Assembly: GCA_036925085.1 (NCBI GenBank)
Contig: JAUPFP010000082.1
Span: forward strand, 372,501 to 436,500
Direction: 5' to 3'
Source: Brachycybe producta
Taxonomy: Eukaryota > Arthropoda > Diplopoda > Playtdesmida > Andrognathidae
Length of the DNA stretch: 64,000 bases
Shown here in pieces: positions 9,572-30,394 of the stretch (positions are counted from its first letter, which is position 1; each line of letters opens with the position of its first letter). The notes below the pieces were generated by a model. That model worked only from the letters and a program-made list of their open reading frames with translations, was not told where the DNA came from and did not search any database. Made by a program: the position numbers and the translations under genes.

Positions 9572-10995
9572 AATTCTGCAATATTATTATTGCGGGAAAT
9601 TGTTCACGAGGGACAAACGGGGCAAATCCAATACTCGGCGAGAGGTGAAACTCTGAGACCCTTGTAACGATGCCACGAATGTCTTTCCGTTGAACAAAAG
9701 TGAATGTCGCCCAGCATTCACGTAACAATACCAGCAAGAGGTGTCAGTGAATAAGGTTGCCAACGGTAACCTAACAAACAGGGATAACTTTACTTACGGG
9801 TCTTGTTCCCTACTTCGCCTTAAAAAGTGAGGTAGATGGAGCTTGTTCCCTGAACAGTGGTAGACGGACTTGAGACACCCGTCTACGTCGTTCTAAAACT
9901 GCTCGCAAAAAGAAGGACAAACGGGGCAAATCTAATACTCGGCGAGAGGTGAAACTCTGAGACCCTTGTAATGACATGCCATGAATGTCTTTTCTTCGAA
10001 ACAAAAGTGAATGTCGCCCAGCATTCACGTAACAATACCAGCAAGAGGTGTCAGTGAATAAGGTTGCCAACGGTAACCTAACAAACAGGGATAACTTTAC
10101 TTACGGGTCTTGTTCCCTACTTCGCCTTAAAAAGTGCGGTAGATGGAGCTTGTTCCCTGAACAATGGTAGACGGACTTGAGACACCCGTCTACGTCGTTC
10201 TAAAACTGCTCGCAAAAAGAAGGACAAACGGGGCAAATCTAATACTCGGCGAGAGGTGAAACTCTGAGACCCTTGTAATGACATGCCATGAATGTCTTTT
10301 CTTCGAAACAAAAGTGAATGTCGCCCAGCATTCACGTAACAATACCAGCAAGAGGTGTCAGTGAATAAGGTTGCCAACGGTAACCTAACAAACAGGGATA
10401 ACTTTACTTACGGGTCTTGTTCCCTACTTCGCCTTAAAAAGTGAGGTAGATGGAGCTTGTTCCCTGAACAGTGGTAGACGGACTTGAGACACCCGTCTAC
10501 GTCGTTCTAAAACTGCTCGCAAAAAGAAGGACAAACGGGGCAAATCTAATACTCGGCGAGAGGTGAAACTCTGAGACCCTTGTAATGACATGCCATGAAT
10601 GTCTTTTCTTCGAAACAAAAGTGAATGTCGCCCAGCATTCACGTAACAATACCAGCAAGAGGTGTCAGTGAATAAGGTTGCCAACGGTAACCTAACAAAC
10701 AGGGATAACTTTACTTACGGGTCTTGTTCCCTACTTCGCCTTAAAAAGTGAGGTAGATGGAGCTTGTTCCCTGAACAGTGGTAGACGGACTTGAGACACC
10801 CGTCTACGTCGTTCTAAAACTGCTCGCAAAAAGAAGGACAAACGGGGCAAATCTAATACTCGGCGAGAGGTGAAACTCTGAGACCCTTGTAATGACATGC
10901 CATGAATGTCTTTTCTTCGAAACAAAAGTGAATGTCGCCCAGCATTCACGTAACAATACCAGCAAGAGGTGTCAGTGAATAAGGTTACCAACGGT
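9572..10995. repeat. 307-bp composite array (18S, ITS1 and 28S pieces), IGS A
   Basis: A 307-bp unit repeats exactly, with the 18S-like marker GGACAAACGGGGCAAATC near 9610, 9915, 10222, 10529 and 10836, giving about 4.5 copies. The middle is a diverged copy of 18S positions about 22129-22190, including CGGCGAGAGGTGAAA. It then switches at AGCAAG to a 28S piece (AGCAAGAGGTGTCAG, as at 29653-29666, and ACAGGGATAACT, as at 29677-29688). In between lies the perfect hairpin GGTT(G/A)CCAACGGTAACC. The same composite is present in ITS1 (24140-24420), so ITS1 and IGS have exchanged sequence. The first copy starts beside a hairpin of GCAATA and TATTGC. Confidence 0.9.
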
Positions 10996-11096
10996 AACCT
11001 AACACATAGATTGACAGCTATGTGTAGTGGGTCTACTCACACGACCTGGTGCAGTCGGCTATCCTATCATGCTGCAAGGTGTGTGGTGGAGGCTCA

Positions 11097-11200
11097 CGGC
11101 GGTGCGTGATGAAGGGCTTAGTGGCACCCTTCTCAGCCGCCGTCAATGGTGATGACGATCTTGGTGGAAGTGAATGGATGTGAATTGCAGAACACATTCA
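11097..11200 (+). pseudogene. 28S-5.8S composite fragment
   Basis: Positions 11097-11170 are a diverged, shortened copy of 28S 27568-27641 (CGGCGGTG, a GAAGGG stretch, AGCCGCCGTC, then GATCTTGGTGGAAGT). Directly after it, 11179-11199 matches 5.8S 25305-25325 with no mismatch that I can see. Two different mature rRNAs are thus joined within 10 bp. The composite recurs in the other block IV copies (near 12470-12555, 39835-39925, 51175-51262 and 52520-52615). Confidence 0.85.
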
Positions 11201-11306
11201 AAGCAGAAAAAACACATAGAAGATGATGAGGATGACTATGTGTAGTGGGTCTACCCACTCGAAGGCAGACAAGCAGTTAATGAATAACCTGCCTAGAAAG
11301 ACTAAT

Positions 11307-11475
11307 CGAGATTCTCACTTGTGAATTGGTAAGCAGAAATTGTAAACGGGTTACGGCGCCCGAATGATGGTTATCCGTGAACGACAGACTCCTATCGCTA
11401 AAGTCGTTGCATGGACTCACTTTTTGAAGTGAAAAAAGTTAAAGTACAAACTTTTGAATGTCAAGGTGAAGAAAT
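11307..11475 (+). pseudogene. Cluster of four short 28S fragments
   Basis: Four pieces of 28S occur in scrambled order: 11307-11319 matches 28952-28964; 11328-11340 matches 27292-27304 (GGTAAGCAGAAAT); 11346-11362 matches 27329-27345 (ACGGGTTACGGCGCCCG); and 11453-11475 is a 23-bp identity with 28635-28657 (TTGAATGTCAAGGTGAAGAA at its core). None could yield a working rRNA. The same cluster recurs in each full block IV unit. Confidence 0.85.
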
Positions 11476-11827
11476 AGTCCGGAATGACGATAAACTAGGC
11501 CGCGATCGAGTGCGAACACTTGCCAAAAAAGTGGTGCATTTTGAGCCCCAATCTCTACTCGCTCTGCCTTGTAGAGTTAATTGTGGCGGACCAAATGTCA
11601 CTATATTTGCGGTATGTTGTCTCGCGGAGAGCTCTTACTTGCTGCCCCAAAACTGACTAAAAACGGTAAATTGGGGGCGAGAGAGAGTTCGTGGCTTGTG
11701 CCGTGTAAAGCTCTGCCAAAAGCGGCTGTCTGTTACATGTTTTTGCGGACAGAAGAGGATCTCCGTGATCATCTCTTCTGACCCTCTGCATTTTAGCAGT
11801 CTTGTCGTTTTAACGGTAAAGAGTGGC

Positions 11828-11948
11828 TTGAAACACGGACCCGAAGTGCCATGAACAACGACTAAACTCAGTCCCAATATAGAGTCGTTGGGCATGGCTT
11901 AAAACAGTTACACGGAAAATGACTGTGGTAATTCTGGAGCTAATACTA
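11828..11948 (+). pseudogene. 28S snippet joined to an 18S 5'-domain fragment
   Basis: Positions 11828-11842 match the 28S sequence CTTGAAACACGGACC found at about 26757-26771. From about 11868 to 11948 the sequence is a diverged copy of 18S 20574-20650, including ACTGTGGTAATTCTGGAGCT and GCTAATAC. The copy is repeated near 13154-13280 and 14113-14240, and at the matching places in IGS B. Confidence 0.85.
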
Positions 11949-12264
11949 TGTGGGGTCGCTATGGATGCTCATAGCGAAAGCGATGATCTTGGTGGAAGTA
12001 AATGAATGGATGTGAAATTGCAGAACACATTCAAAGGGAATCGGACATGGCGAAATAAGTGGTGCATTTCTGTGCCGTGTAAAGCTCTTCCAAAAGCGGC
12101 TGTCTGTTACATGGTTTTGCGGACAGAAGAAGATCTCTGTGATCATCTCCTCTGACCCTCTGCATTGCAGCAGTCTTGTCGCTTTAACGGTGAAGTAGTA
12201 CTGAAACACGGACAGAATGAAATGCACGGAAAAACACTAATCGAGATTCTCACTTGGTGGTGAA

Positions 12265-12351
12265 TAAAGAGTAACGTAGGTGTCCTGAGGCTTGCTCAAG
12301 AATAGGGCAAGGATATACAAGAGGTGTCTGTTAAGGTTACCAATGGTAACC
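12265..12351 (+). pseudogene. 28S fragment pair ending at a perfect hairpin
   Basis: Positions 12265-12285 match 28S 29461-29481 (AAAGAGTAACGTAGGTGTCC). A short piece like 28S CAAGAGGTGTC (about 29654) follows near 12319-12329, and then the hairpin GGTTACCAATGGTAACC. In 28S the two pieces lie about 170 nt apart, so the fragment has an internal deletion. Copies lie near 39640-39725 and 52335-52415. Confidence 0.8.
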
Positions 12352-13294
12352 TAACACATAGAGGGGCAGCTATGTGTAGTGGGTCTACCCACACGACCTG
12401 TTGCAGTCGGCTATCCTATCATGCTGCAAGGTGTGTGGTGGAGGCTCACGGCGGTGCGTGATGAAGGGCTTAGCGCACCCTTCTCAGCCGCCGTCAATGG
12501 TGATGACGATCTTGGTGGAAGTGAATGGATGTGAATTGCAGAACACATTCAAAGCATAGTGGATGACTATGTGTAGTGGGTCTACCCACACGAAGGCAGA
12601 CAAGCAGTTAATGAATAACCTGCCTAGAAAGACTAATCGAGATTCTCACTTGTGAATTGGTAAGCAGAAATGGCACACGGGTTACGGCGCCCGAATGATG
12701 GTTATCCGTGAACGACAGACTCCTATCGCTAAAGTCGTTGCATGGACTCACTTTTTGAAGTGAAAAAAAGTTAAAGTACAAACTTTTGAATGTCAAGGTG
12801 AAGAAATAGTCCGGAATGACGATAAACTAGGCCGCGATCGAGTGCGAACACTTGCCAAAAAAGTGGTGCATTTTGAGCCCCAATCTCTACTCGCTCTGCC
12901 TTGTAGAGTTAATTGTGGCGGACCAAATGTCACTATATTTGCGGTATGTTGTCTCGCGGAGAGCTCTTACTTGCTGCCCCAAAACTGACTGAAAACGGTA
13001 AATTGGGGGCGAGAGAGAGTTCGTGGCTTGTGCCGTGTGAAGCTCTGCCGAAAGCGGCTGTCTGTTACATGTCTTTGCGGACAGAAGAGGATCTCCGTGA
13101 TCATCTCTTCTGACCCTCTGCATCGCAGCAGTCTTGTCGCTTCAACGGTAAAGAGTGGCTTGAAACACGGACCCGAAGTGCCATGAACAACGACTAAACT
13201 CAGTCCCAATATAGAGTCGTTGGGCATGGCTTAAAACAGTTACACGGAAAATGACTGTGGTAATTCTGGAGCTAATACTATGTGGGGTCGCTAT

Positions 13295-13542
13295 GGATGC
13301 TCATAGCGAAAGCGATGATCTTGGTGGAAGTAAATGAATGGATGTGAAATTGCAGAACACATTCAATGGAAACGGACATGGCGAAATAAGTGGTGCCGTG
13401 TAAAACTGTGGTAATTCTGGATGCTCATAGCGAAAGCGATGATCTTGGTGGAAGTAAATGAATGGATGTGAAATTGCAGAACACATTCAATGGAAACGGA
13501 CATGGCGAAATAAGTGGTGCCGTGTAAAACTCTGCCAAATTC
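13295..13542. repeat. 124-bp chimeric sub-repeat, two copies
   Basis: A 124-bp unit starts at 13295 and 13419. In order it holds an 18S piece (ACTGTGGTAATTCTGGA, at the unit boundary), a 28S piece (GATCTTGGTGGAAGTA, 28S near 27627), a 5.8S piece (GAATTGCAGAACACATT with one inserted A) and a 28S piece like 28999-29020 (CGGACATGGCGAAATAAG against CGGACTTGGCGAAATCAG). All are in sense orientation. Confidence 0.9.
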
Positions 13543-14253
13543 GGCTGTCTGTTTAATGTTTATGCGGACAGAAGAAGATCTCCGTGATCGTCTTATCTGA
13601 CCCTCTGCATTTTAGCAGTCTTGTCGTTTTAACGGTAAAGAGTGGTATTGAAACACGGACAGTGAAAGTGATTTGCGTGTTTACATAAAGTGTTAGTGTG
13701 TGGGGTTCACTTTATGTAAGCAGAAAAAGTTAAAGTACAAACTTTTGAATTCCAAGGTGAAGAAACAGTCCGGAATGACGATAAACTAGGCCGCGATCGA
13801 GTGCGAACACTTGCCAAAAAAGTGGTGCATTTTGAGCCCCAATCTCTACTCGCTCTGCCTTGTAGAGTTAATTGTGGCGGACCAAATGTCACTATATTTG
13901 CGGTATGTTGTCTCGCGGAGAGCTCTTACTTGCTGCCCCAAAACTGACTGAAAACGGTAAATTGGGGGCGAGAGAGAGTTCGTGGCTTGTGCCGTGTGAA
14001 GCTCTGCCGAAAGCGGCTGTCTGTTACATGTCTTTGCGGACAGAAGAGGATCTCCGTGATCATCTCTTCTGACCCTCTGCATCGCAGCAGTCTTGTCGCT
14101 TCAACGGTAAAGAGTGGCTTGAAACACGGACCCGAAGTGCCATGAACAACGACTAAACTCAGTCCCAATATAGAGTCGTTGGGCATGGCTTAAAACAGTT
14201 ACACGGAAAATGACTGTGGTAATTCTGGAGCTAATACTATGTGGGGTCGCTAT

Positions 14254-14625
14254 GGATGCTCATAGCGAAAGCGATGATCTTGGTGGAAGTAAATGAATGG
14301 ATGTGAAATTGCAGAACACATTCAATGGAAACGGACATGGCGAAATAAGTGGTGCCGTGTAAAACTGTGGTAATTCTGGATGCTCATAGCGAAAGCGATG
14401 ATCTTGGTGGAAGTAAATGAATGGATGTGAAATTGCAGAACACATTCAATGGAAACGGACATGGCGAAATAAGTGGTGCCGTGTAAAACTGTGGTAATTC
14501 TGGATGCTCATAGCGAAAGCGATGATCTTGGTGGAAGTAAATGAATGGATGTGAAATTGCAGAACACATTCAATGGAAACGGACATGGCGAAATAAGTGG
14601 TGCCGTGTAAAACTCTGCCAAATTC
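14254..14625. repeat. 124-bp chimeric sub-repeat, three copies
   Basis: The 18S/28S/5.8S/28S chimeric unit described at 13295 recurs here at 14254, 14378 and 14502. The neighbouring block IV unit has two copies, so the copy number has changed by exactly one 124-bp step, as expected from slippage or unequal exchange. Confidence 0.9.
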
Positions 14626-15332
14626 GGCTGTCTGTTTAATGTTTATGCGGACAGAAGAAGATCTCCGTGATCGTCTTATCTGACCCTCTGCATTTTAGCA
14701 GTCTTGTCGTTTTAACGGTAAAGAGTGGTATTGAAACACGGACAGTGAAAGTGATTTGCGTGTTTACATAAAGTGTTAGTGTGTGGGGTTCACTTTATGT
14801 AAGCAGAAAAAGTTAAAGTACAAACTTTTGAATTCCAAGGTGAAGAAACAGTCCGGAATGACGATAAACTAGGCCGCGATTGAGTGCGAACACTTGCCAA
14901 AAAAGTGGTGCATTTTGAGCCCCAATCTCTACTCGCTCTGCCTTGTAGAGTTAATTGTGGCGGACCAAATGTCACTATATTTGCGGTGTGTTGTCTCGCG
15001 GAGAGCTCTTACTTGCTGCCCTAAAACTGACTAAAAACGGTAAATTGGGGGCGAGAGAGAGTTCGTGGCTTGTGCCGTGTAAAGCTCTGCCAAAAGCGGC
15101 TGTCTGTTACATGTTTTTGCGGACAGAAGAGGATCTCCGTGATCATCTCTTCTGACCCTCTGCATTTTAGCAGTCTTGTCGTTTTAACGGTAAAGAGTGG
15201 TATTGAAACACGGACCGTGAAAGTGATTTGCGTGTTTACATAAAGTGTTATGTAAGCAGAAAAAGTTTAAGTACAAACTTTTGAATTCCAAGGTGAAGAA
15301 ACTGTCCGGAATGACGATAAACTAGGGGGCTG

Positions 15333-15614
15333 GCGGTGTCGCAATGCGCGCACTGGGAGTCTGACTCCTATCGAAGCTCCACGTGAGCCTTGACGTCCGC
15401 AATAATGGGGGGTTTATCACAGCAGACAGAGATGCAAGCGGTGTCGCAATGCGCGCACTGGGAGTCTGACTCCTATCGAAGCTCCACGTGAGCCGAGACG
15501 TTATGCGGGCTGTCAGGGCGGGGGGTTATTCACAGCATTTGTCAGTAGCAGGCGGTGTCGCAATGCGCGCACTGGGAGTCTGACTCCTATCGGAGCTCCA
15601 CGTGAGCCGAGACG
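15333..15614. repeat. Trio of 62-bp palindromic repeats, IGS A
   Basis: Three near-identical copies of 62-63 bp start at 15333, 15438 and 15552, separated by unrelated spacers of about 40-50 bp. Each has GCGGTGTCGCAATGCGCGCA, the near-perfect palindrome GGAGTCTGACTCC and an E-box-like CACGTG. The copies are far more alike than their spacers, which suggests a constraint or recent exchange. A weak resemblance to 28S near 26019-26035 (AGTCCTATCGAA) may point to its origin. A protein-binding role is only a guess. Confidence 0.85.
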
Positions 15615-18600
15615 CCTTGCAATACCTGACCAACCTTTATGAACTTGTTTCACAGTGAGAGTTTAAAAAGCTCGATGAAAGACAGATCTTGCACGGCACA
15701 CTATATGCAATTGTGCACAAGTATTATATCTTGAGCCCTTTGCAGATTGTACTGAAACAGATCCTGGTCTCTGATAAATCTTTCTTTAAGAAAGGAAAGC
15801 ACGCCTGTTTGATGCTTTTGCGGACAGAAAATGGTCTCCCTTGACTCGTGCGTCGGAACAAAATTCGATGAGAATCGTACAACTTACCGGGACTCGGTCG
15901 ATACTCTTATCTTCCACCCTCGTTGTCTCGAAAACCTGTTCACTACGATAGCATAAGCGAGTCATTTACAAGGGGGTATCTCCTCTGACCCACTGCGTTG
16001 CAGACCGTCGCTTTATCCGAGAGTCTCTTTCGACTTTCTGCCTTAGTGCATATAACAGTTTGGTATTTATACATCGTGTTTCATGAACCAATTTTGGGTT
16101 GTAAATCGTGAGCGCAGGCACGTATTCTCGAAAGGCCATATGAACACAGTATTTTACCGTGACTTTATTGTGTACTCTGGTAGGAACTGATGGAGATTTT
16201 CTCTTTGCGAGAAAAAGAAGCACGCCTGTTTGATGCTTTTGCGGACAGAATTTGGTCCCCCTTGACTCGTGCGTCGGAACAAACTTCGATGAGAATCGTA
16301 CAACTTACCGGGACTCGGTCGATAGCCTTATCTTCCACCCTCGTTGTCTCGAAAACCTGTTCACTACGATTGCATATGCGAGTCATTTTAACGGGGATTC
16401 TACTCTGACCCACTGCATTGCCAGTCCCCGTCGCTTCGACTCTGAAGTTTTTCTCTTTTGCTGCCTTAACACACATATAAGCAGTTCGAAATACATGGTA
16501 AACTTATATACTTCTTGCTCTATGAACTGATTTCCAATGAGAAGCGTGAGCACAGGCACGTATTCTCGGGAAAAGACGTTCTCCAAATGGGCCCAATAGA
16601 GTATATTCTACTGTGGTAGTTCTGTGGTTATGATGATGCTCTGGTAGAAACTGCGAAAACTTTGGTTGTTCTCGAACACACTCATGCGTCTGATTCTAAC
16701 CTTGAGGGAGAATAAAAAGCACGCCTGTTTAATGTTTTTGCGGACAGAAAAAGTGTTAACTTTGACGTCGTCGTGCTACGAAGTCATTTTAACAGTATCT
16801 CTTCTGACCCTCTGCATTGCATGTTTCGCTTTGACTCTGAAGTAATTCTCTCGGTCTTGCTGCCTTAACACACATATAAGCAGTTCGAAATACATGGTAA
16901 ACATATACTTCTTGCTCTATGAACTGATTTCCAATGAGTAATGAACGTCATCTTGTAGACGCATTCTCGCGAAAGACGTTCTCCAAATGGGCCCAATAGA
17001 GTATATTCTACCGTGGTAGTTCTGTGGTTATGATGCTTTGGTGGAAACTGCGAGAACTTTGGTTATTCTCGAACAAATACTCATGAGTCTGAATCTAACC
17101 TTGAGAGAGAATGAAAAGCACGCCTGTTTAATGTTTTTGCGGACAGAAAAAGTGTTAACTTTGACGTCGTCGTGCTACGAAGTCATTTTAACGGTATCTC
17201 TTCTGACCCTCTGCATTGCATGTGTTGCTTTGAATCCGAAGTTATTCTCTCGGTCTTGCTGCCTTAACACACATATAAGCAGTTCGAAATACATGGTAAA
17301 CTTATATACTTCTTGCTCTATGAACTGATTTCCAATGAGAAGCGTGAGCGCAGGCACGTATTCTCGGGAAAAGACGTTCTCCAAATGGGCCCAATAGAGT
17401 ATATTCTACCGTGGTAGTTCTGTGGTTATGATGATGCTCTGGTAGAAACTGCGAGAACTTTGGTTATTCTCGAACACACTCATGCGTCTGATTCTAACCT
17501 TGAGGGAGAATAAAAAGCACGCCTGTTTAATGTTTTTGCGGACAGAAAAAGTGTTAACTTTGACGTCGTGCTACGAAGTCATTTTAACAGTATCTCTTCT
17601 GACCCTCTGCATTGCATGTTTCGCTTTGACTCTGAAGTAATTCTCTCGGTCTTGCTGCCTTAACACACATATAAGCAGTTCGAAATACATGGTAAACTTA
17701 TATACTTCTTGCTCTATGAACTGATTTCCAATGAGTAATGAACGTCATCTTGTAGACGCACTCTCGCGAAAGACGTTCTCCAAATGGGCCCAATAGAGTA
17801 TATTCTACCGTGGTAGTTCTGTGGTTATGATGATGCTCTGGTAGAAACCGTGAGAACTTTGGTTATTCTCAAACAAATACTCATGCGTCTGAATCTAACC
17901 TTGAGGGAGAATAAAAAGCACGCCTGTTTGATGCTTTTGCGGACAGAGAAGGTCCCCCTTGACTCGTGCGTCGGAACAAACTTCGATGAGAACCGTACAA
18001 CTTACCGGGATTCGGTCGATACTCTTATCTTCCACCCTCGTTGTCTCGAAAACCGTTCACCACGATTGCATATGCGAGTCATATTCACGGGGATTCTCCT
18101 CTGACCCACTGCATGGCAGACCATTGCTTTGACTAATGTTTTCTCGTCTTGCTGCCTTAACACAGTAGCAGTTCGATTTGGTACACTTATACTCGTGCTC
18201 GAACAAATGCCTTTGAGAATCGTGAGTCGCAACACGTGTAATCTCATAAAGTTCGCCAAATGGGCACGAAAGAGTATATTTTACCGTCGTTCTGCGGTGC
18301 TCTGGTAGGAACCGAGACTTTGGTTATTCTCCAACACACACTCGTGTGTCTGAATCTAACCTTGAGGGAAAATAAAAAGCACGCCTGTTTGATGCTTTTG
18401 CGGACAGAAGGTCCCCCTTGACTCGTGCGTCGGAACAAACTTCGATGAGAATCGTACAACCCACCGGGATTCGGTCGATACTCTTATCTTCCACCCTCGT
18501 TGTCTCGAAAACTGTTCACTACGATTGCATATGCGAGTCATATTCACGGGGATTCTCCTCTGACCCACTGCATGGCAGACCGTTGCTTTGACTAAGGTTT

Positions 18601-18831
18601 TCTCGTCTTGCTGCCTTAACACAGTAGCAGTTCGATTTGGTAAACTTATACTCGTGCTCGAACAAATGCCATTGAGAATCGTGAGTCGCAACACGTGTAA
18701 TCTCATAAAGTTCGCCAAATGGGCACGAAAGAGTATATTTTACCGTCGTTCTGCAGTGCTCTGGTAGGAACCGAGACTTTGGTTATTCTCACCCTCGTGT
18801 GTCTGATTCTTTCCCATGAGAAAGAAGAATA
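15615..18831. repeat. Block V: repeats of about 0.4 kb, IGS A
   Basis: After about 180 bp of unique sequence (15615-15800), segments of about 400 bp recur, marked by GCACGCCTGTTTAATGTTTT or GCACGCCTGTTTGATGCTTT near 15798, 16219, 16720, 17116, 17516, 17917 and 18378. Each passes into TGCGGACAGA, an interior of either a short AAAAGTGTTAAC type or a long CCCCCTTGACTCG type, and a right end TCTGACCC(T/A)CTGCA. A tail with CACACATATAAGCAG, CCAAATGGGC and AGAGTATATT follows in many copies. I recognise no rRNA fragment or gene. The long interior is shared with block III and is the site of one recombination junction in IGS B. Confidence 0.87.
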
Positions 18832-20402
18832 AAGATTAAGCCGTGCAAGGGAATCTGGTTAACAATTTTCCAGAACTTGGTTGCAGGGATCGCCCGTGAG
18901 TCCTTCGGAGACTTTCGGCGAAAGGGCCTGAGAGACTAACGTCTTCTGTTTGTGTAAGTCTGACTGCATCTCCCCCGAGAGGGACCAAGAGTCAGCGATA
19001 AGCACCGCACTCGTTGCGGTGTCAGGTACCTCCGTCGAACTATAAGTATCCGGGGCAGGGAGTACGATTCTCGCACCAGGCCAAAGAAAATCTGTTTGAC
19101 AGTTTTCCAGAACTTGGTTGAAGTCATCGCCCGTGAGTCCTTCGGAGACTTTCGGCGAAAGGGCCTGAGAGACTAACCGTCTTCTGTTTGTGTAAGTCTG
19201 ACTGCATCTCCCCCGAGAGGGACCAAGAGTCAGCGATAAGCACCGCATTCGTTGCGGTGTCAGGTACCTCCGTCGAACTATAAGTCTCCGGGGCAGGGAG
19301 TACGACTCTCGCACCATGTTCTAACTAACGCTGCGTGCGTGCTTGGTGAGTCTGATTCTTTCTCGTGAGGGGGAAAAAAAGATTAAGCCGTGCAAGGGAA
19401 TCTGGTTAACAATTTTCCAGAACTTGGTTGCAGGGATCGCCCGTGAGTCCTTCGGAGACTTTCGGCGAAAGGGCCTGAGAGACTAACGTCTTCTGTTTGT
19501 AAGTCTGACTGCATCTCCCCCGAGAGGGACCAAGAGTCAGCGAGAAGCACCGCACTCGTTTCGGTGTCAGGTACCTCCGTCGAACTATAAGTATCCGGGG
19601 CAGGGAGTACGATTCTCGCACCAGGCCAAAGAAAATCTGTTTGACAGTTTTCCAGAACTTGGTTGAAGTCATCGACCGTGAGTCCTTCGGAGACTTTCGG
19701 CGAAAGGGCCTGAGAGACTAACGTCTTCTGTTTGTGTAAGTCTGACTGCATCTCCCCCGAGAGGGACCAAGAGTCAGCGATAAGCACCGCACTCGTTGCG
19801 GTGTCAGGTACCTCCGTCGAACTATAAGTCTCCGGGGCAGGGAGTACGACTCTCGCACCATGTTCTAACTAACGCTGCGTGCGTGATTGGTGAGTTTGTT
19901 CTTTCTCATGAGGGAAGAATAAAGATTAAGCCGTGCAAGGGAATCTGGTTAACAATTTTCCAGAACTTGGTTGCAGGGATCGCCCGTGAGTCCTTCGGAG
20001 ACTTTCGGCGAAAGGGCCTGAGAGACTAACGTCTTCTGTTTGTGTAAGTCTGACTGCATCTCCCCCGAGAGGGACCAAGAGTCAGCGATAAGCACCGCAC
20101 TTGTTGCGGTGTCAGGTACCTTCGTCGAACTATAAGTATCCGGGGCAGGGAGTACGATTCTCGCACCAGGCCAAAGAAAATCTGTTTGACAGTTTTCCTG
20201 AACTTGGTTGAAGTCATCGCCCGTGAGTCCTTCGGAGACTTTCGGCGAAAGGGCCTGAGAGACTAACGTCTTCTGTTTGTGTAAGTCTGACTGCATCTCC
20301 CCCGAGAGGGACCAAGAGTCAGCGATAAGCACCGCACTCGTTGCGGTGTCAGGTACCTCCGTCGAACTATAAGTCTCCGGGGCAGGGAGTACGACTCTCT
20401 TA
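18832..20402 (+). repeat. Block VI: six 28S-derived half-repeats upstream of 18S, IGS A
   Basis: Three double units begin at 18832, 19379 and 19922 (547, 543 and about 481 bp). Each holds two half-repeats of about 236 bp. Every half-repeat is a shortened sense copy of 28S about 27884-28235: GGGAATCTGGTTAA, GATCGCCCGTGA, GTAAGTCTGACTG, CCAAGAGTCAGCGA, AAGCACCGCAC and GATTCTCGCACC are all kept in order, while about 110 nt of a 28S variable stretch is missing. Each double unit opens with AAGATTAAGCCGTGCAAG, a copy of the 18S 5' region (AAGATTAAGCCATGCAAG near 20510), fused to the 28S piece at a shared AAG. Being next to 18S, the block is probably part of the 5' external transcribed spacer. Confidence 0.92.
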
Positions 20403-20468
20403 CCAAGTTCAAACTAAAGCTGCGTGCTTGCATCGTGAGACATGCAAAAAGCACATGAGAGAGGCAGC
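20403..20468 (+). other. Leader immediately before 18S
   Basis: This short non-repeated stretch lies between the 28S-derived half-repeats and the 18S gene. It is identical to 62401-62466 and holds an imperfect palindrome around CATGCAAAAAGCACATG. It is presumably the 3' end of the 5' external transcribed spacer. I see no promoter-like element in it. Confidence 0.6.
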
Positions 20469-22394
20469 TACACTGGTTGATCCTGCCAGTAGTCATATGC
20501 TCGTCTCAAAGATTAAGCCATGCAAGTGTAAGTACGGTCCATGAAAGTCTGGGCCTACCGCAAACTGCTCACTAACTCAGTCTCAATATAGTCGCTGGTC
20601 ACGACTATAAACAGTTAAACGGATAACTGTGGTAATTCTGGAGCTAATACGATGATGAGGCAGAACCCGTGAACTATGAGTGAGATCACCCTCGATCACC
20701 GGTGCCGTTTTCAGAAACCCCGCTTTTTGGAACGCACCAAGAACGTAAGTGAATCTCGCGAAACGGCCGATCACCGATCAACCGAGTCGTCCTCGCGACA
20801 CTCGCGGTGACATTTCGAGAAACGGGTCTGCCTTATCAACCTTAGACGGTGTAGCCATTGTTTCTCGTAGTGCTCACGAGTACCGGGGAATCAGTGTTCG
20901 ATACCGGAGAGGGAGCACGAGAAACGGCTACCACATCTAAGGAAGGCAGCAGGCACGCAAATTACTCAATGCTGGCTCAGTGAAGTAGTGACGATAAATA
21001 ACGATGCGGAACTCGATCGAGGCTCCGTTTATCGGAATGAGTTGATGTCAAATCTCTTTCCGAGAAGCTACTGGAGGGCAAGCCTAGTGCCAGCAGCCGC
21101 GGTAACTCTAGCTCCAGTAGCATATATTAAAGTTGTTGCGGTTAAAAAGCTCGTAGTCGATTCTGGGTCGGTCCGCCGCAATCTGCAGCTATCGTTCGTT
21201 CCTTCTCGATTCTCCTTTCTCGACCCCGAAAAAGAATGAGTTTGGTTATTCCGTGCGTGTGTGACTCCGTGTCATTGCGTGTGGGTTTTCCCTACTTCAT
21301 TTCTTCTAGGGAGAAGAATGTGTTTATCTGTTGGTTATCGTTCGTTAGAGGCTGTTGCGAAACGAGGACCGCACCTAGGACGGATGACGGATAGGAGCCC
21401 GTCCTCTCTGTGACGGTTCTAACAATTCGCCCTGCTTCCATTGCCCCCGCCATCGTGTGTGCGTGCGCTCACTCGTTTAGATGTACGTGTTACTGCCTTG
21501 TTTGTGTTCGCACTCACACAGTTCATTACATCTCTTCTGTTCGTGATGCCACCACACTTACCGATGGAAAGGGTGGTAAAAATGGACTCAAAGCTTGTGG
21601 CCGTTAAACTGTGAAAAAACAGAGTGTGTCGGGTTTTTCTTTCCCGTAAGTGTTCATCCGTCGGAGTTACTTTGACAAAATCTCAATGCTCAAAGTAGGC
21701 TCTCGCAAATTACGTTGAACTATGCCTGAAAGATACAAGCATGGAATAACGAAGACGACCTCCCGAATAAGATTGAACGGTAGCATATAATTTTATTTCG
21801 GTCTAAAGAGGTCACGATCTTCTCGTTGGTCTTGATCCAATAAAAAGCCACCTAGTCCGATGCGCGGTCTCTACCCGAATCTAAAAGACGTCGATTTGTT
21901 ACGGAACACAACCTCGCACTCTCGCATCTGCGATTGCCGTGTTGCTGTGGAACTAGTGAACTTCGTCTTATTTACGGATGAACCGTCGCCGGGCGCCAAA
22001 CCTCTTTGATGCGGGGAGAGCTCGCCACTTACCGTCGCACACACAATCCTAGCGATTGTTGTTGTGACGTGCGTGGCATTCTACGGGCTCTCCATCGATG
22101 CATCGCAAAGGGGAGGTAATGTTCAAAAGGGACAGACGGGGGCAAACGTATTACGGGGCGAGAGGTGAAATTCGAAGACCCTCGTAAGACGACCAAGAGC
22201 GAAAGCATTTGCCAAGAATGTTTTCTTTGATCAAGAGCGAAAGTTAGAGGATCGAAGGCGATCAGATACCGCCCTAGTTCTAACCATAAACGATGCCAAC
22301 CAGCAATCCGCCGTGGTTCCTCCAATGACCCGGTGGGCAACTATTCCTCGGGAAACCAAAGTTTTTGGGTTCCGGGGGTAGTATGGTCGCAAAA

Positions 22395-22442
<48 letters not shown>

Positions 22443-23010
22443 GCGGCTTAATTTGACTCAACACGGGAAAACTTACCCGGCCCGGACACTGCAAGGATTG
22501 ACAGATTGAAAGCTCTTTCATGATTCAGTGGTTGGTGGTGCATGGCCGTTCTTAGTTGGTGGGGTGACTTGTCTGCTTGATTGCGATAACGAACGAGACT
22601 CCAGCCTGCTAATTAGACCGACGACCCTCGTCACTTCGGGAGCAACCCTACTTCGCATCTTGGCATTGAGGCCCATGTCTCCTTGCTAGCGGGGTTTGTG
22701 TTTGTCTCTCGTCGATCGACGAACAGGGCGCTCGGCAAAAAATACCAACTTCTTAGAGGGACGGGAGGCGTCTAGCCTTACGAGAACGAGCAATAACAGG
22801 TCTGTGATGCCCTTAGATGTCCGGGGCCGCACGCGTGCTACAATGTGGGACGCATCGCGTCCATTCTCGAGAGCCCAGCTCGAGAGAGTTACCCTTCTTC
22901 GAGGGGGTAACCGCTGAAATTCCAAAGTACGTGATTGGGACTGTGGCTTGCCAACTTTCCCACACGAACCTGGAATTCCTAGTAGCCGTGAGTCACTATC
23001 TCGTGGAGAT

Positions 23011-23054
<44 letters not shown>

Positions 23055-23144
23055 CGAATGGTTTAGCAAGGTCTTCGGACTGCAGAACGGTCGTGAAATT
23101 CGCTTTCATCGACTCCTGTGGAAAGTTGCCCGAACTTAACCATT

Positions 23145-23202
<58 letters not shown>
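20469..23202 (+). rRNA. 18S (small subunit) ribosomal RNA, complete
   Basis: This is the RNA of the 40S ribosomal subunit. The 5' end reads CTGGTTGATCCTGCCAG and the 3' end GTAGGTGAACCTGCGGAAGG followed by ATCATTA. Core landmarks are in order: GCCAGCAGCCGCGGTAA (near 21089), AGAGGTGAAATTC (near 22161), AAACTTAAAGGAATTGACGG (near 22399), GTACACACCGCCCGTC (near 23027) and the 3' AAGTCGTAACAAGG. At about 2,734 nt it is some 900 nt longer than the usual 1.8 kb, mostly because of V4. The core looks intact and functional. Sequence type is bilaterian animal. The start was set at the usual TAC before CTGGTTG and may be off by a few bases. Confidence 0.97.
21185..22125 (+). other. Expanded V4 region of 18S
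   Basis: Between the end of the conserved central domain (GTCGGTCCGCCGC) and the return of conserved sequence (GGGACAGACGGGGGCAAACG) lie about 940 nt, where most animal 18S genes have roughly 200-300 nt. The region is rich in GT/CT runs such as GTGCGTGTGTGACTCC. It holds most of the differences between the two 18S copies in the window. Such V4 growth is known in some arthropods, for example Strepsiptera and isopods, but is unusual. It could be an expansion segment kept in the mature RNA or a removable insert; the sequence alone does not tell. Confidence 0.8.
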
Positions 23203-23527
23203 TTTATAAGGACTTAGTCTTAAATATTGAAGGATCGTTTAAGATTATCTAAGTTGCTTATCAGGTCTGACGGTGCCCTGAAAAATTGGCCGAGTCGGTT
23301 CCATGAATAGGTGGATGAAGCGTAACCATCCACTGACTTCAAAAACCATCACCACAAGGTTTTTTGTTCGCTACTACTACTACAAAAGTGTGGTAGATCA
23401 ACGAACTTTTTTTCCTTGAACGCTGGTGGACGCAAGTGCGGCGCGAGTGGTGATAGACGTTGACCGTCGCACCCGTCAACCACCGTTCTAAAAACTCCGC
23501 AATATCATTGCGAGAAACTGTTCACGA

Positions 23528-24056
23528 GGGACAAACGGGGCAAATCTAATACTCGGCGAGAGGTGAAACTCTGAGACCCTTGTGATGACATGCCATGAAT
23601 GTCTTTTTGTTGAACAAAAGTGAATGTCGCCCAGCATTCACGTGAAGATCAGATCCGCCCTAAATCAAAACCATAAACGATACCAGCAAGACCTGCAATC
23701 TGCCGTGGTTCCTCCAATGACCACCGGTGGGAAAAACTATTCTTACGGGAGTAGTCTGGTCGCCAACAAAAGTACTGTCGCAAAACTGAAACTAAGGAAT
23801 TGACGGAAAGGCACCACCACCAAGAGTGGAAAAGGTAGCCTTCTCACAGGGATAACGAACGAGACTCCAGCCTGCTATTCAGGCCGACGACCGTCATCGT
23901 CACTTCGGAGAAGAAGCAGCCCTGCTACGCACCTTGGCATTGAGGCCCATGTCTCCTTGCTCGCGTTTGGGTTGCTGTCTCTCGTTGATGATCGATGAAC
24001 TCAGGGTCGCTCGGCAATAACAAATCCGCTAATAAAACTTGACATCTAAGGAAGGC
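23528..24056 (+). pseudogene. 18S-derived module 1 in ITS1
   Basis: This is a diverged, shortened copy of 18S about 22129-22740: AGAGGTGAAA, a CATAAACGAT stretch, GCCGTGGTTCCTCCAATGAC, AGGAATTGACGGAAAGGCAC, GATAACGAACGAGACTCCAG, TTGGCATTGAGGCCCATGTC and GGTCGCTCGGCAATA appear in 18S order. A gap replaces about 22440-22575. It ends with ACATCTAAGGAAGGC (24042-24056), a piece from much further 5' in 18S (20933-20947), so the order is rearranged. Missing core elements mean that it cannot act as 18S. Confidence 0.92.
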
Positions 24057-24305
24057 GGAAAAAGGTCGTGTGCCAGAAAGATTCACACCAGTACGGCAGG
24101 GTGTGGAACTTTGGCATACTTTGAAGCACATATGTGTCCGTGAATAAGGTTACCAACGGTAACCTAACAAATCCAGGGATAACTTAACATATGGGTCTTG
24201 TTCCCTACTTCGCCTTAAAAAGTGAGGTAGATGGAACTTGTTCCCTGAACAATAGTAGACGGACTTGATACCACCGTCTACATCGTTCTAAAACCGCTCG
24301 CAAAA

Positions 24306-24653
24306 AAGACAAACGGGGCAAATCTAATACTCGGCGAGAGGTGAAACTCTGAGACCCTTGTAATGACATGCCATGAATGTCTTTTCTTCGAAACAAAAGT
24401 GAATGTCGCCCAGCATTCACGTAAAGATCAGATCCGCCCTAGATCGAAACCATAAACGATACTCCAGCCTGCTGATGAGACCGACGACCCTCATCATCAC
24501 TTCGGAGAAGAAGCAGCCCTGCTACGCACCTTGGCATTGAGGCCCTTGTCTCCTTGCTCGCGTTTGGGTTGTTGTCTCTCGTTGATGATCGATGAACTCA
24601 GGGTCGCTCGGCAATAACTAATCCGCTAATAAAACTGAACATCTAAGGAAGGC
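24306..24653 (+). pseudogene. 18S-derived module 2 in ITS1
   Basis: A second copy of the 18S module has a larger internal deletion. It jumps from the CATAAACGATACC stretch directly to CCAGCCTGCT and lacks the GCCGTGGTTCCTCC-to-AACGAACGAG part. It again ends with the displaced ACATCTAAGGAAGGC (24639-24653) and the same unique tail (GCCAGAAAGATCCACACCAGTACGG-type) as module 1. The shared tail shows that modules 1 and 2 arose by tandem duplication after the rearrangement. Confidence 0.9.
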
Positions 24654-24921
24654 GGAAAAAGGTCGTGTGCCAGAAAGATCCACACCAGTACGGCAGGGTG
24701 TGGAACTTTGGCATACCTTGAAGCGCAGAGGTGTCAACAAATAAGGTTACCAACGGTAACCTAACACATAGAGGTGGGACTATGTGTATGGGTCTTGTCC
24801 TCTACTTCGCCTTAAAAAGTGCGGTAGTTGGAGCTTGTTCCCTGAACGGTGATAGACGGACTTGGAGCACCCGTCTACGCCGTTCTAAAACCGCAATACT
24901 GCGGGAGCTGTTCGTAAGGTA

Positions 24922-25200
24922 GACAAACGGGGCAAATCTAATACTCGGCGAGAGGTGAAACTCTAAGACCCTTGTAATGACATGCCATGAATGTCTTTTC
25001 TTCGAACAGCTGGGTCCCGTTTCCCTGAACGGTGATAGACGGACTTGAAGCACCCGTCTACGCCGTTCTAAAACCGCAATACTGCGGGAGCTGTTCGTAA
25101 GGCAGACAAACGGGGCAAATCTAATACTCGGCGAGAGGTGAAACTCTAAGACCCTTGTAATGACATGCTATGAATGTCTTTTCTTCGAACAGAATGGTAG
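24922..25200 (+). pseudogene. Two short 18S-derived modules near the end of ITS1
   Basis: Truncated modules 3 (24922-25008) and 4 (25105-25193) keep only the 5' part of the 18S-derived sequence, from GACAAACGGGGCAAATC to GAATGTCTTTTCTTCGAACA. They repeat with a 183-bp period together with a linker holding CCGTCTACGCCGTTCTAAAA. Module 4 ends about 45 bp before 5.8S. Confidence 0.85.
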
Positions 25201-25240: not shown

Positions 25241-25398
25241 CACTCTGGACGGTGGATCACTCGGCTCGTGGGTCGATGAAGAACGCAGCCACTTGCGTGA
25301 ATTAATGTGAATTGCAGAACACATTGATCATTGACCATTCGAACGCACATTGCGGACTCGAGGCGTAAAAGCCTCTTGTCCACGTCCGAACGAGAGGA
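25241..25398 (+). rRNA. 5.8S ribosomal RNA
   Basis: This is the short RNA that pairs with the 28S 5' end. GGTGGATCACTCGGCTCGTG and TCGATGAAGAACGCAGC near the 5' end, TGAATTGCAGAACACATT in the middle and GAACGCACATTGCGG towards the 3' end are diagnostic. A GC stem follows (GAGGCG...GCCTC). Length is about 158 nt, as usual. Both ends are set by comparison with the family and are good to a few bases. Confidence 0.95.
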
Positions 25399-25850
25399 TG
25401 GGTAAAAAACGTCTAACCTAACGTAAAAAACCAGAAGCTCCTTTTGTGGGGTGTCCGTGCTGTTGTGTGTTGGTATGTGTTTAGTTGTGCGTGTAAGTAA
25501 GTTGGTTTCGAAAACATAGTACAAGCTTGACCCAAAAGCACAATCGACGACTGCACTGCCGCATACAAACAGTCATTTGCACCACTCATTGGAGACGAAA
25601 GTGATCTACGTTGGTTATCGGGCCTTTCCGTTTATCGTCCTGCGCCTTGGATAAACGGTGGCTTTAGAAAAGACGCTTCCTCTAACCATGGGTGAAACAT
25701 GCCAGTTATTGGACCCTTGTCTGCATCCTTTTTCGAAAGTTTTGTAGTCTTGGCGGTTTCAATATAATTGTTACCTTGTTCGATGCTGGTCGTGCTTCGT
25801 GCGCGATTGTTTTTTACCTGATGGTGGGGAAAAAAAGAATATCTTTTCCC
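25399..25850 (+). other. ITS2
   Basis: The spacer of about 452 nt between 5.8S and 28S has an ordinary length. Unlike ITS1, it contains no rRNA-derived fragment that I can find. Stretches rich in G and T near 25441-25500 and in A and T near 25735-25855 stand out. Confidence 0.88.
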
Positions 25851-27067
25851 TCGTTTCGGACGTGAATACCCGCTGAACTTAAGCATATCATTAAGCGGAG
25901 GACAAGAAACCAACTCGGATACCCTTAGTAACTGCGAGTGAACAGGGCAATTCAGTCCAGCACCGAAGCCTCTTTTCCCCTCGTAAGCGGGACTGAGTGC
26001 AATGTGGTGTACGGAAGTGCGAGTCCTATCGAACTCTACGATCTCCGAGGTAGGAGTCTTCCCCGAGAGGAAGCTATTACCGAAGATGGTGCAAGTCCCA
26101 TGTTGGACCTCTGCCGTAGTCGTGGTTTCGTTTACGGAATTCTCGCTTACGAGACCTTCCAAGAGTCGGGTTGTTTGAGAGTGCAACCTGAAGAAGGGTG
26201 GTAAATTCCATCCAAGACTGAATACCGATCACGAGACCGATAGCAAACTAGTACCGTGAGGGAAAGTTGCAAAGAACTTTGAAGAGAGAGTTCAAGAGAG
26301 CGTGAAACCGTCCAGAGGTAAACGGGTGGGACCCCGAAAGTCGAACGGGAGCGGCGGGTGAGATTCACTTTTGCGTCGATCATCATCACTTTTCATTTCT
26401 GCTAATACGTCCTGTTACAGAAAGAAAGTGTCTTGTTGCATCGTCGTAGGTTTTTCTACATCCCCCCTTCTTCCTAGTAGGACGCCGCGAGCCAGTTGCG
26501 GGTCGATCTCATGGAACAACTCGTGTGTTTGCGACGATGGTCTTTCTCTCTCAATCTTTTGCGAGAGAAGTCATCGCTGCCCCTTGACTCCAGATCTTCC
26601 CACTTGCAAACTGCTGCTCTCTCTCACCATGGATCGATAACAAAGAGTGCTCACGTTATGTCGTCCAGCATAAACTTTATGCGAGACCGACTCCTGTTGT
26701 AGACGTGAGCGACTTGTTTTCGGCGGCGAGTAGGTCGGTACCCCACCCGACCCGTCTTGAAACACGGACCAAGGAGTCCAACAAGTAAGCGAGTCATCGG
26801 TTTTCCAGATTAAAACCGAAGGCGAAACGAAAGTGACACTCTCTGTTATTATAAGAATATAATAACCCTGATGGCGAGATCCTCTACGGGAGGCGCATCG
26901 CCGGCCCGTCCGCAATTCTAAGGACGGAGCTCGAGCTTACTTGTTGGCACCCGAAAGATGGTGAACTATGCTTGGGCGGGATGAAGCCAGAGGAAACTCT
27001 GGTGGAGGTCCGCAGGGGTTCTGACGTGCAAATCGATCGTCAGACCTGAGTATAGGGGCGAAAGACT

Positions 27068-27120
<53 letters not shown>

Positions 27121-29721: not shown

Positions 29722-29758
<37 letters not shown>

Positions 29759-29801
29759 ATCCCGCAGAAGAGATAAAGCGTTGGATTGTTCACCCACCAA
29801 C

Positions 29802-29852
<51 letters not shown>

Positions 29853-30394
29853 CCTGATGACAAAACTGACGATGATGATAATCGTACACGGTCGCCGCGA
29901 CGGTAGTCCCGCTCAGTACGAGAGGAACGGCGTGGACCGGACCAATGGTGCTCGTGCTTGGTCGATCGGCCAGTGGCGCGAGGCTAAGTCCGTCGAGATA
30001 ACGACTGAAAGCCTCTAAGTCGGAATCCGTGCCGGTCATTGCGGCGATAAGAGTTTCTATGTTGGCCTCGCGTCCTTGGAACCCAAAGAGTTGGAAAGGT
30101 AGGACTAATATAATTAGTCCAATATACCCCACGAACTCGAAGTAAGTTCCTAGGAGACCTGCTACTTTCTCGTAAATCCGTCTTCCACACCGTGAGTCAT
30201 TTCTTGGTGGAAGGTTCGGTTACCTGGATGTGCGTCTCTCCGGCTCTTATTTAAGAGCAAGAGCGTCCGTTCTCAAGGAAGAGGCATTAAATCGTCTGTA
30301 GACGACTCGAGTACCGGTCGGGGTGTCGTACTTAGTAGAGCTCGCTTCTTCAAGCTGCGATCTATTGAGACTAATCCCTGTCTTTTCATTAAGA
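25851..30394 (+). rRNA. 28S (large subunit) ribosomal RNA, complete but interrupted
   Basis: The gene opens with GAATACCCGCTGAACTTAAG and runs through CTAGTACCGTGAGGGAAAGT, CTTGAAACACGGACCAAGGA, GTAGCTGGTTCCCTCCGAAG, GCATTGCGATG, CTTAAGGTAGCCAAATGCCT, AGTAACGTAGGTGTCC, CCACAGGGATAACTGGCTTG (peptidyl-transferase region), the sarcin-ricin loop AGTACGAGAGGAAC and TACTTAGTAGAG near the 3' end. Length is about 4.54 kb. The gene carries a 198-nt insertion at helix 69. R1 and R2 retrotransposon target sites are unoccupied. The 3' end was placed by comparison and may be off by 15 nt. This copy is functional only if the insertion is removed or tolerated. Confidence 0.95.
28690..28887 (+). other. 198-nt structured insertion in helix 69 of 28S
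   Basis: The universal run GTAACTATGACTCTCTTAAGG is split. The left side ends AAGTAACTATGACTTTTTT (to 28701). The right side starts TATGACTTTCTTAAGG at 28888. TATGACTTT is thus repeated on both sides (28690-28698 and 28888-28896), with 198 nt between equivalent bases. The insert is GC-rich and has several perfect stems: GGGG/CCCC, GACCA/TGGTC, GTAAC/GTTAC and AGGGG/CCCCT. Removing one repeat and the insert restores the core exactly. Candidates are a small intron-like element, a short non-autonomous transposon with a 9-bp target duplication, or a processed-out spacer. I see no group I core signature and no coding potential. Confidence 0.85.

Follow-up and report, generated by a model that had tools for sequence, protein, structure and literature searches.

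Tandem subrepeats of 200 and 123 bp have been described in the intergenic spacer (IGS) of Daphnia (PMC3849761). The rDNA of the millipede Brachycybe producta likewise has tandem IGS subrepeats of variable copy number, which here are alike between units. Unlike the Daphnia repeats, for which the accessible part of that source describes no rRNA coding sequence, three of the arrays reported here hold decayed 18S, 5.8S, and 28S sequence. The 5' repeats of the Pokey transposon are made of IGS and ITS2 pieces (PMC3849761). As in Pokey, pieces from different rDNA spacers have been combined, repeated, and apparently kept similar by exchange with the array; however, the Pokey pieces lie inside a transposon, whereas those of B. 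producta lie inside rDNA spacers and include mature rRNA sequence. 5S pseudogenes of Gnetum and Ephedra are carried and amplified inside rDNA units (PMC6526317). There too, pseudogene copies are locked into the unit, and in Ephedra they are homogenised with it, but only 5S is involved and the available text describes no chimeric joins, whereas here partial 18S, 5.8S, and 28S copies carry such joins. R2 elements have a 28S-derived 3' UTR (PMC5035012). The capture of rRNA sequence in a new context is common to R2, rRNA-derived SINEs, and our locus, although the former two are mobile elements, of which none came to notice at the joins here. Hancock and Dover reportedly described slippage and cryptic simplicity in rDNA expansion segments. 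In both settings internal copying and deletion shape non-core rDNA sequence, but expansion-segment slippage acts on short motifs within one segment, whereas here pieces of different genes are joined. No animal spacer built of 18S/5.8S/28S chimeras was evident from titles and the opening lines of abstracts in the open-licence literature.

The rDNA array

The window (i.e., the whole stretch of DNA analyzed, 64,000 nt of contig JAUPFP010000082.1) lies inside a large rDNA array in which neighbouring 18S genes are 28-52 kb apart. The interval at issue, positions 9572-20402 (10,831 bases), belongs to the first IGS of the window (IGS1), and the following features were used as sources or for comparison:

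20470..23202, plus strand: 18S rRNA gene, source (Rfam RF01960)
25241..25399, plus strand: 5.8S rRNA gene, source (Rfam RF00002)
25846..30394, plus strand: 28S rRNA gene, source (Rfam RF02543), a copy with a 187-bp insert
38885..62425, plus strand: next IGS (IGS2) with the same block types, i.e., mosaic blocks, a 307-bp array (49980-51066), and a 28S-derived array (60845-62425)

No duplicated pieces were found within the mature rRNA genes themselves (E <= 0.05). The mitochondrial COX1 of this genome translates with table 5 and has an arthropod look.

rRNA-derived pieces in the spacers

The three genes were queried against four spacers by sensitive blastn at E <= 1e-3. Plus/minus matches numbered 38/0 in IGS1, 6/0 in ITS1, 0/0 in ITS2, and 53/0 in IGS2 (97/0 in sum), while ten dinucleotide shuffles of each spacer gave no match at this threshold. 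When one copy per repeat block was kept (4,451 bp), a threshold of E <= 0.1 gave 14 plus and no minus matches, whereas 200 shuffles of the same non-redundant blocks averaged 0.055 for either strand. Five more IGS stretches on the contig, two of them partial, yielded 232 plus and no minus matches. The presence of 18S, 5.8S, and 28S pieces, claimed earlier by a model that saw only the letters (hereafter the sequence-only reading), is thus borne out beyond chance, both by the excess over shuffles and by the inequality of the strands. The "dozens" of pieces it counted include tandem copies, and distinct pieces number about 14. Their tandem amplification is evident in the 307-bp array, the 1.35-kb and 124-bp repeats, and a six-copy 28S array.

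At E <= 1e-3, rRNA similarity covered 2,320 of the 10,831 bases, and about 79% of the interval had no recognisable similarity to rRNA. The description of the spacer as assembled from rRNA therefore applies to part of it. Coverage amounted to 315 of 1,433 bases in the 307-bp array, 629 of 4,326 in 11005-15330, 0 of 3,460 in 15331-18790, and 1,376 of 1,612 in 18791-20402. The blocks of IGS1, all on the plus strand, are the following:

9601..11004: 307-bp tandem array; the unit is an ITS1-related piece with decayed 18S 1656-1721 and 1740-1775 plus 28S 3606-3620 (TRF, blastn, chimera alignment)
11005..15330: scrambled block of 1.35-kb and 124-bp repeats
11153..11198: join of 28S (to 1792) to 5.8S (from 57) in non-genomic order, 2-bp overlap
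11861..11950: 18S 102-185 piece, 82-83% identity (E 2.1e-15 for 105-185)
11985..12062: chimera of 28S 1778-1793, 5.8S 58-87, and 28S 2950-2977, core of the 124-bp unit
15331..18790: repeat blocks of 399 and 459 bp, no rRNA at E <= 1e-3
18847..20404: array adjoining 18S (putative 5' ETS), six copies of the 28S 2036-2386 stretch

Order within the blocks was assessed with a chimera alignment under strict penalties and six shuffles per block, in which the mature rRNA regions were the only ones searched. A lenient version was discarded as overfitted, for it assigned rRNA to most of every block listed, control blocks and minus strand included. The non-genomic order proposed for blocks IV and VI and the 307-bp array was found only in 11005-15330, where 28S 1706-1792, 5.8S 57-85, 28S 1442-1509, 28S 2786-2808, 18S 102-185, 28S 2950-2977, and 28S 3413-3446 are joined. 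The 307-bp unit is mostly collinear 18S with a 15-bp 28S piece (its 18S matches have E values of 9.5e-11 to 2.4e-9), and the array before 18S, of which the alignment covered the first two copies and blastn all six, starts with a short 18S piece and continues as collinear 28S interrupted by deletions. These 28S copies lack 2092-2197 and most of 2268-2286, and two versions (A and B) alternate. Under the strict alignment, rRNA accounted for 141 of 951 bases in the tail15k block, hardly above chance (up to 104 in shuffles), and assignments in blocks U459, I, and III, in ITS2, and in the stretch after 28S did not exceed shuffles. The sole weak match in 15331-18790 was 18S 157-204 at 16610-16657 (E 8e-3). 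Rfam cmscan of 9572-20440 returned nothing at E <= 0.5, so covariance models fail to recognise the pieces.

The same altered 28S-5.8S join occurs in two contexts (11153-11198 and 11985-12062). Its pattern was found 418 times in the genome, with no occurrence of the reversed control, and among the matches listed all were on rDNA contigs C57 and C82.

ITS1 and its relationship to the 307-bp unit

ITS1, which is not part of the interval, provides the strongest case: there the chimera alignment assigned 1,062 of 2,038 bases to decayed 18S, mostly in gene order (23512-25191):

23512..24020, plus strand: decayed collinear 18S 1644-2272, the least decayed copy
24301..25191, plus strand: three more copies of this 18S stretch with larger deletions (chimera alignment)

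The sequence-only reading saw rRNA pieces in the 307-bp array, correctly, but missed its kinship to ITS1. Bases 1-112 of the unit are identical to ITS1 24313-24424, even though the 18S piece within this stretch has only about 80% similarity to the gene, and we count this identity in support of the main explanation below as a putative mark of ITS1-IGS exchange. Bases 124-298 are 84-91% like ITS1 24134-24306 and 24727-24894, which are spacer with no rRNA assigned by the strict alignment. Because the unit contains ITS1 spacer sequence, the comparison favours DNA (or pre-rRNA) over mature rRNA as the template for that step.

Origin, decay, and turnover of the pieces

Sites at which the gene departs from the Rfam consensus were used to polarise changes in the ITS1 18S copies, the 307-bp unit, and the six 28S copies. 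At 61 such sites the ITS1 18S copy was gene-like at 49, consensus-like at 4, and neither at 8. The corresponding figures for the first copy in the 28S array adjoining 18S were 41, 2, and 8 of 51 sites, and the other five copies were gene-like at 40-41 of 50-52 sites. Since the pieces compared mostly agree with the gene where it is non-consensus, they were copied later, from the genes of this animal itself. Copying from within the array, as first proposed, accordingly stands, given the shared gene-specific sites, the excess over shuffles, and the unequal strands. Changes confined to the piece occurred at 46 sites in the ITS1 18S copy and at 21 in the first 28S copy. The gap between 18S 1721 and 1740 occurs in the 307-bp unit as well as in each of the four ITS1 copies, and that after 28S 2091 (2094 in another numbering), where conserved core is lost too, is common to all six 28S copies. 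The pieces so compared resemble rRNA pseudogenes in that they derive from functional genes and have decayed by substitution and deletion.

One piece set occurs in both IGSs of the window and is shared by the five further stretches, although single pieces are absent from some of them. The 28S piece is present in 8, 6, 8, 4, 4, 6, and 6 copies before seven 18S genes, and the 42 copies have a mean pairwise identity of 0.976. Matches to the 307-bp unit ranged from 0 to 12 across the five stretches (two partial), with none in the stretch u2 (18,216 bp). These are tandem spacer repeats that are alike between units and vary in copy number between them, as in subrepeats under concerted evolution.

Orientation

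Comparison of the whole window with itself at E <= 1e-6 revealed 1,884 direct matches over 57,732 of the 64,000 bases and no inverted match, so the orientation rule covers non-rRNA spacer sequence as well. Sense-only pieces therefore require neither the selection for sense fragments nor the rRNA template that were suggested earlier on the strength of constant orientation. The claim that all pieces share the orientation of the genes holds at strict cut-offs (97/0 and 232/0), but weak minus matches appear at looser ones. In the non-redundant blocks there were 17 plus and 3 minus matches at E <= 1, the latter above the largest count in 200 shuffles (2), and 25 plus and 4 minus at E <= 10, the latter within the shuffle range (largest 7). 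One of the weak minus matches is 28S 500-534 at 10030-9996 (E 0.004 against the unit alone, 0.31 against the whole IGS), and two strictly assigned IGS pieces are also minus (18S 565-542 in U1352 and 28S 2614-2580 in tail15k). Such antisense similarity could arise from rRNA stems matching their partner strand.

Formation of the chimeric spacers

We consider it probable that the pieces arose as partial copies of genes of the same array and have since decayed, the outcome of in-line duplication, trimming, and concerted evolution, with no need for a function. Duplication and joining would occur at the DNA level within the head-to-tail array, through unequal exchange, slippage, or replication restart between units. 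Deletions, many of them small and some large, would then trim the copies, which would be re-copied in part and spread array-wide by concerted evolution as functionless passengers. Because in-line events never invert pieces, orientation would be kept for every array sequence; where the order runs backward (28S to 5.8S, or 28S to 18S), a duplication join would be indicated, and where it skips forward, a deletion. Counted against this model are several pieces of only 15-30 bp, which short template switches would yield more easily than repeated deletion, together with the large non-rRNA share of the interval, the weak antisense similarity, and the pairing and folding of the first 28S copy. The spacers would thus offer a readable record of their origin from genes, in which segments were duplicated and deleted in line and homogenisation fixed their decayed remains across units, and sense-only orientation would be accounted for without selection. 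Relatives with versions at an earlier stage of decay, if they exist, would let the succession of steps be read directly. These findings also suggest that primers and rRNA read counts in such species could hit the pseudo-18S of ITS1 and the pseudo-28S adjoining 18S.

Chance similarity or misassembly is an extremely improbable source of the pieces: rRNA was assigned even to controls by the lenient alignment, but the shuffles were empty at E <= 1e-3, a query with the ITS1 copy gave at least 40 full-length matches of 98-100% identity on 14 contigs (40 of 227 candidates scored), and a mosaic query at least 40 matches on 7 contigs (40 of 311 scored). Replication-based template switching, in which a stalled fork repeatedly resumes on short same-strand stretches of neighbouring rRNA genes (a process that we take to be of the FoSTeS/MMBIR kind), is a possible, though tentative, account of the main scrambling step in the 11.0-15.3 kb block. 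It refines the in-line explanation, and the confidence given to the two overlaps. Uniform orientation at strict cut-offs agrees with it, as do pieces of 16-90 bp. So does the tightness of the few joins whose two partners were directly assigned, where neighbouring pieces overlap or are separated by no more than 3 bp (28S/5.8S, overlap 2 and gap 2; 5.8S/28S, gap 0-2; 18S/28S, overlap 3). However, switching could also use the other strand, and the window holds no inverted match at E <= 1e-6; moreover, much of the decay (that of ITS1 and of the array adjoining 18S) is plain collinear deletion, and later duplication made renewed use of the chimeric join. The template switching first suggested within the array may apply to the scrambled block. 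Reverse transcription of rRNA or its fragments (e.g., by the enzyme of a resident retrotransposon) and insertion of the cDNA into the spacer would fit the sense strand at strict cut-offs and the origin of assigned pieces in mature rRNA regions, the only ones searched. We nevertheless find it very unlikely, as the 307-bp unit includes ITS1 spacer sequence, no piece assigned by the strict alignment begins or ends at a mature rRNA terminus, and random cDNA insertion would be expected in both orientations.

Sense fragments in transcribed spacers might be retained by selection because they act as decoys for processing or ribosomal proteins, assist folding, or form chimeric non-coding RNAs. That only sense pieces are seen at strict cut-offs, and that they lie in ITS1 and adjoining 18S, is in keeping with this idea, but uniform orientation also characterises the remainder of the window, the copy number of the 28S piece ranges between 4 and 8, and u2 has no 307-bp match, and we judge such a function unlikely. 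A bolder variant, in which the array continually builds spacers from its own genes by in-line capture, cutting, shuffling, and amplification, and in which every pre-rRNA transcript includes the sense chimeras of ITS1 and those preceding 18S, retained for a role in ribosome assembly or rDNA stability, seems to us improbable too. The decoy or chimeric-RNA function finds no support in ITS1, where 14 of the 21 changed pairs of the 18S copy no longer pair, 7 still do, and pairing persists in 1 of the 5 cases in which both partners have changed. A weak constraint is possible in the first 28S copy of the array adjoining 18S: 32 of 38 compared pairs are unchanged (10 more are without a partner), and folding is slightly better than in shuffles (z -1.97 and -2.03; for z -1.97, 6 of 200 shuffles were as good). 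Across the six 28S copies, the changed pairs that still pair were 4 of 6 (the first copy), 4 of 7, 4 of 7, 4 of 7, 5 of 6, and 4 of 8.

rDNA unit organization

The window (C82:372501-436500, on an rDNA contig of the 295-Mb assembly) holds an rDNA unit of ~42.0 kb, measured from 18S to next 18S. A 301-bp 18S query was 100% identical in all of the best 40 of 56 candidate genome matches, and among the matches listed 18S neighbours on C82 were spaced 28-52 kb apart. At 2.73 kb (Rfam score 1381 bits), its 18S gene is long for an animal.

Genes of the unit (Rfam)
20470-23202: 18S gene
25241-25399: 5.8S gene
25846-30394: 28S gene
62471 (start): next 18S gene

rRNA-derived pieces in the spacers

The genes were compared with each spacer by sensitive blastn (E<=1e-3), with ten dinucleotide shuffles of each of the four spacers as control. 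Plus/minus matches numbered 38/0 in the first intergenic spacer (IGS1), 6/0 in ITS1, 0/0 in ITS2 and 53/0 in the next intergenic spacer (IGS2), versus zero in the shuffled spacers. This plus-strand excess, obtained by strand-aware local alignment, confirmed the sequence-only reading in its claim that the spacers carry pieces of 18S, 5.8S and 28S beyond chance. In a non-redundant set with a single copy per repeat block (4,451 bp; 200 shuffles), we found 14 plus and 0 minus matches at E<=0.1, where shuffles averaged 0.055 on either strand; the counts were 17 and 3 at E<=1 and 25 and 4 at E<=10. Read backwards, the same blocks gave no match at E<=1. Control blocks (I, III and after 28S; 4,068 bp) gave none at E<=1 and 6 plus and 0 minus at E<=10. 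Since the 3 minus matches at E<=1 exceed the shuffle maximum of 2, slight weak antisense similarity is present, which could come from rRNA stems matching the partner strand. At E<=1e-3 the pieces in the four spacers are all sense, as proposed.

That the spacer at 9572-20402 was assembled from rRNA fragments is an overstatement: pieces cover 2,320 of its 10,831 bases, and none was found in 15331-18790 at E<=1e-3. The reported dozens of pieces come from about 14 distinct ones repeated in tandem. Their order was examined by strict chimera alignment, allowing either strand and using six shuffles per block.

Order of pieces (chimera alignment; positions in the window's own genes)
1.35-kb unit, pieces 1-6: 28S 1706-1792; 5.8S 59-85; 28S 2873-2917, 1442-1461, 1481-1509, 2786-2808
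1.35-kb unit, pieces 7-10: 18S 565-542 (minus); 28S 1901-1932, 910-924; 18S 102-185
1.35-kb unit, pieces 11-16: 28S 1778-1793; 5.8S 58-87; 28S 2950-2977, 2884-2917, 3150-3158, 3413-3446
307-bp unit: 18S 1670-1721, 1740-1775 and 28S 3606-3620
Array before 18S (two copies): 18S 39-54, then 28S 2036-2091, 2198-2267, 2286-2386, in order
ITS1 first copy, 23512-24020: collinear 18S from 1644 to 2272, interrupted by deletions
ITS1 after first copy: order steps back to 18S 464-480, 675-685
ITS1 further copies, at 24301, 24909, 25092: three shorter versions of the first 18S stretch

The claimed non-genomic order applies to the 1.35-kb unit, which is the only real scramble; the array before 18S follows 28S order (gene matches gave the same collinear pattern in all six copies), and the rRNA pieces of the 307-bp unit are mostly collinear 18S. 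In the 1.35-kb unit 552 bases were explained, versus 0 to 120 in six shuffles, and because shuffles reach 120 its shortest pieces are individually unsafe. Explained bases were 81/700 in the 399-bp block (shuffles up to 25), 141/951 at 15.2-16.15 kb (up to 104) and 0/851 in the 459-bp block. Downstream of the 28S gene they were not above shuffles; a weak repeated match to 28S 431-455 in this stretch (30499-30650 and 31959-32037; E about 0.2-0.6) may be another captured piece.

ITS1, overlooked previously, is the clearest case of rRNA-derived spacer, with 1,062 of 2,038 bases assigned to 18S (six shuffles, 0 to 183). The IGS 307-bp unit is related to it: ITS1 24313-24424 matches bases 1-112 of the unit without a difference, while ITS1 24727-24894 and 24134-24306 show 84-91% identity to its bases 124-298.

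Origin, spread and orientation

For the ITS1 18S copy and the six 28S copies before 18S, we compared the positions at which gene and Rfam consensus differ. The ITS1 copy agreed with the gene at 49/61 sites, with the consensus at 4 and with neither at 8 (55/68 with the gene over the wider 18S stretch); the first 28S copy agreed at 41/51, 2 and 8, respectively, and the other five with the gene at 40-41 of 50-52. Piece-only changes numbered 46 in the ITS1 copy (48 in the wider stretch) and 21 in the first 28S copy. The 28S piece also retains the first part of an insertion that the consensus does not have, and is missing conserved core beside it. The ITS1 and 28S pieces are copies of this animal's own genes that postdate most gene peculiarities and have decayed since.

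Five further C82 IGS stretches (two incomplete, with masked bases) gave 232 plus and 0 minus matches to the same piece set; one of them (u2, 18,216 bp) was without the 307-bp and 28S 1442-1509 pieces at that search's cut-off. Tandem amplification, as proposed, is evident in the 28S piece, present in 8, 6, 8, 4, 4, 6 and 6 copies before seven 18S genes, with A and B versions in alternation (42 copies, identity averaging 0.976). Genome-wide, the 28S-5.8S join pattern has 418 occurrences (371 in forward and 47 in reverse contig orientation; reversed control 0), and those places listed (first of 418) all lie on the rDNA contigs C57 and C82. Misassembly is no serious option: among the matches listed, a 301-bp mosaic query hit seven contigs (40 matches, best of 311 candidates) and an ITS1 query hit 14 (40 full-length, best of 227).

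The constant orientation had been taken to suggest either copying by template switching within the array or selection for sense pieces. Self-comparison of the whole window (E<=1e-6) gave 1,884 direct matches (57,732 of 64,000 bases covered) and none inverted, so that repeats share one orientation whether or not they derive from rRNA. Selection is not needed, because in-line duplication and exchange in a head-to-tail array would produce one orientation throughout. Repeat blocks lacking rRNA pieces hold most of the 34 occurrences of a 19-bp module, AAAGCACGCCTGTTTRATG (<=1 mismatch; 5975-60392, all plus strand; shuffles 0), which may belong to promoter or enhancer repeats of the spacer.

A possible function found no support in ITS1, where 36 of 57 followed pairs were unchanged and only 7 of the 21 changed still pair (1/5 among those changed on both sides); a further 7 had one side deleted. 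The first of the 28S copies before 18S mostly keeps its helices (32 of 38 pairs unchanged, 4 of 6 changed still pairing, 10 further pairs with a partner outside the piece), and the other copies are alike. This copy folded somewhat better than shuffles (z -1.97; 6/200 as good), as did the ITS1 18S copy (z -2.03; 3/100), as rRNA-derived sequence may do. Weak constraint is possible in the array before 18S; on the whole the spacer pieces most likely have no function.

The array is a genuine, uncommonly rich case of rDNA building spacer from its own genes. The portions of open-licence literature consulted yielded no animal spacer of 18S/5.8S/28S chimeras, and an older description may exist. Nearest in kind are the IGS and ITS2 repeats captured by Pokey (PMC3849761) and 5S pseudogenes amplified within rDNA units (PMC6526317); 5S pseudogenes also feature in PMC8928438, and R2 elements with a 28S-derived 3' UTR (PMC5035012) were compared as a case of captured rRNA sequence.

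Inserts in 28S genes and mitochondrial copies

This unit's 28S gene carries a 187-bp insert (28698-28885; ends TTTTGCG/CGCAAAA) with repeated TATGACTTT at its borders; the 6 other 28S copies examined lack this insert. It sits in the conserved 28S region where R2-type elements insert. Genome matches numbered 41 (best 40 of 430 candidates scored); those listed comprised 7 full (the window's included) and one partial on rDNA contigs and 33 on other contigs (81-99% identity). It is a dispersed element whose ends resemble those of a DNA transposon. Another insert of ~142 bp, in 2/6 28S copies (loci L024 8297-8438 and L027 6414-6555), falls between positions 2122 and 2124 of the window's 28S, where the Rfam consensus has no counterpart. 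Translation table 5 fits the mitochondrial COX1, which looks arthropod, and its near-complete and broken copies on C1 and C17 (L010-L012; contigs of 22 and 4.6 Mb) are probably nuclear mitochondrial insertions.
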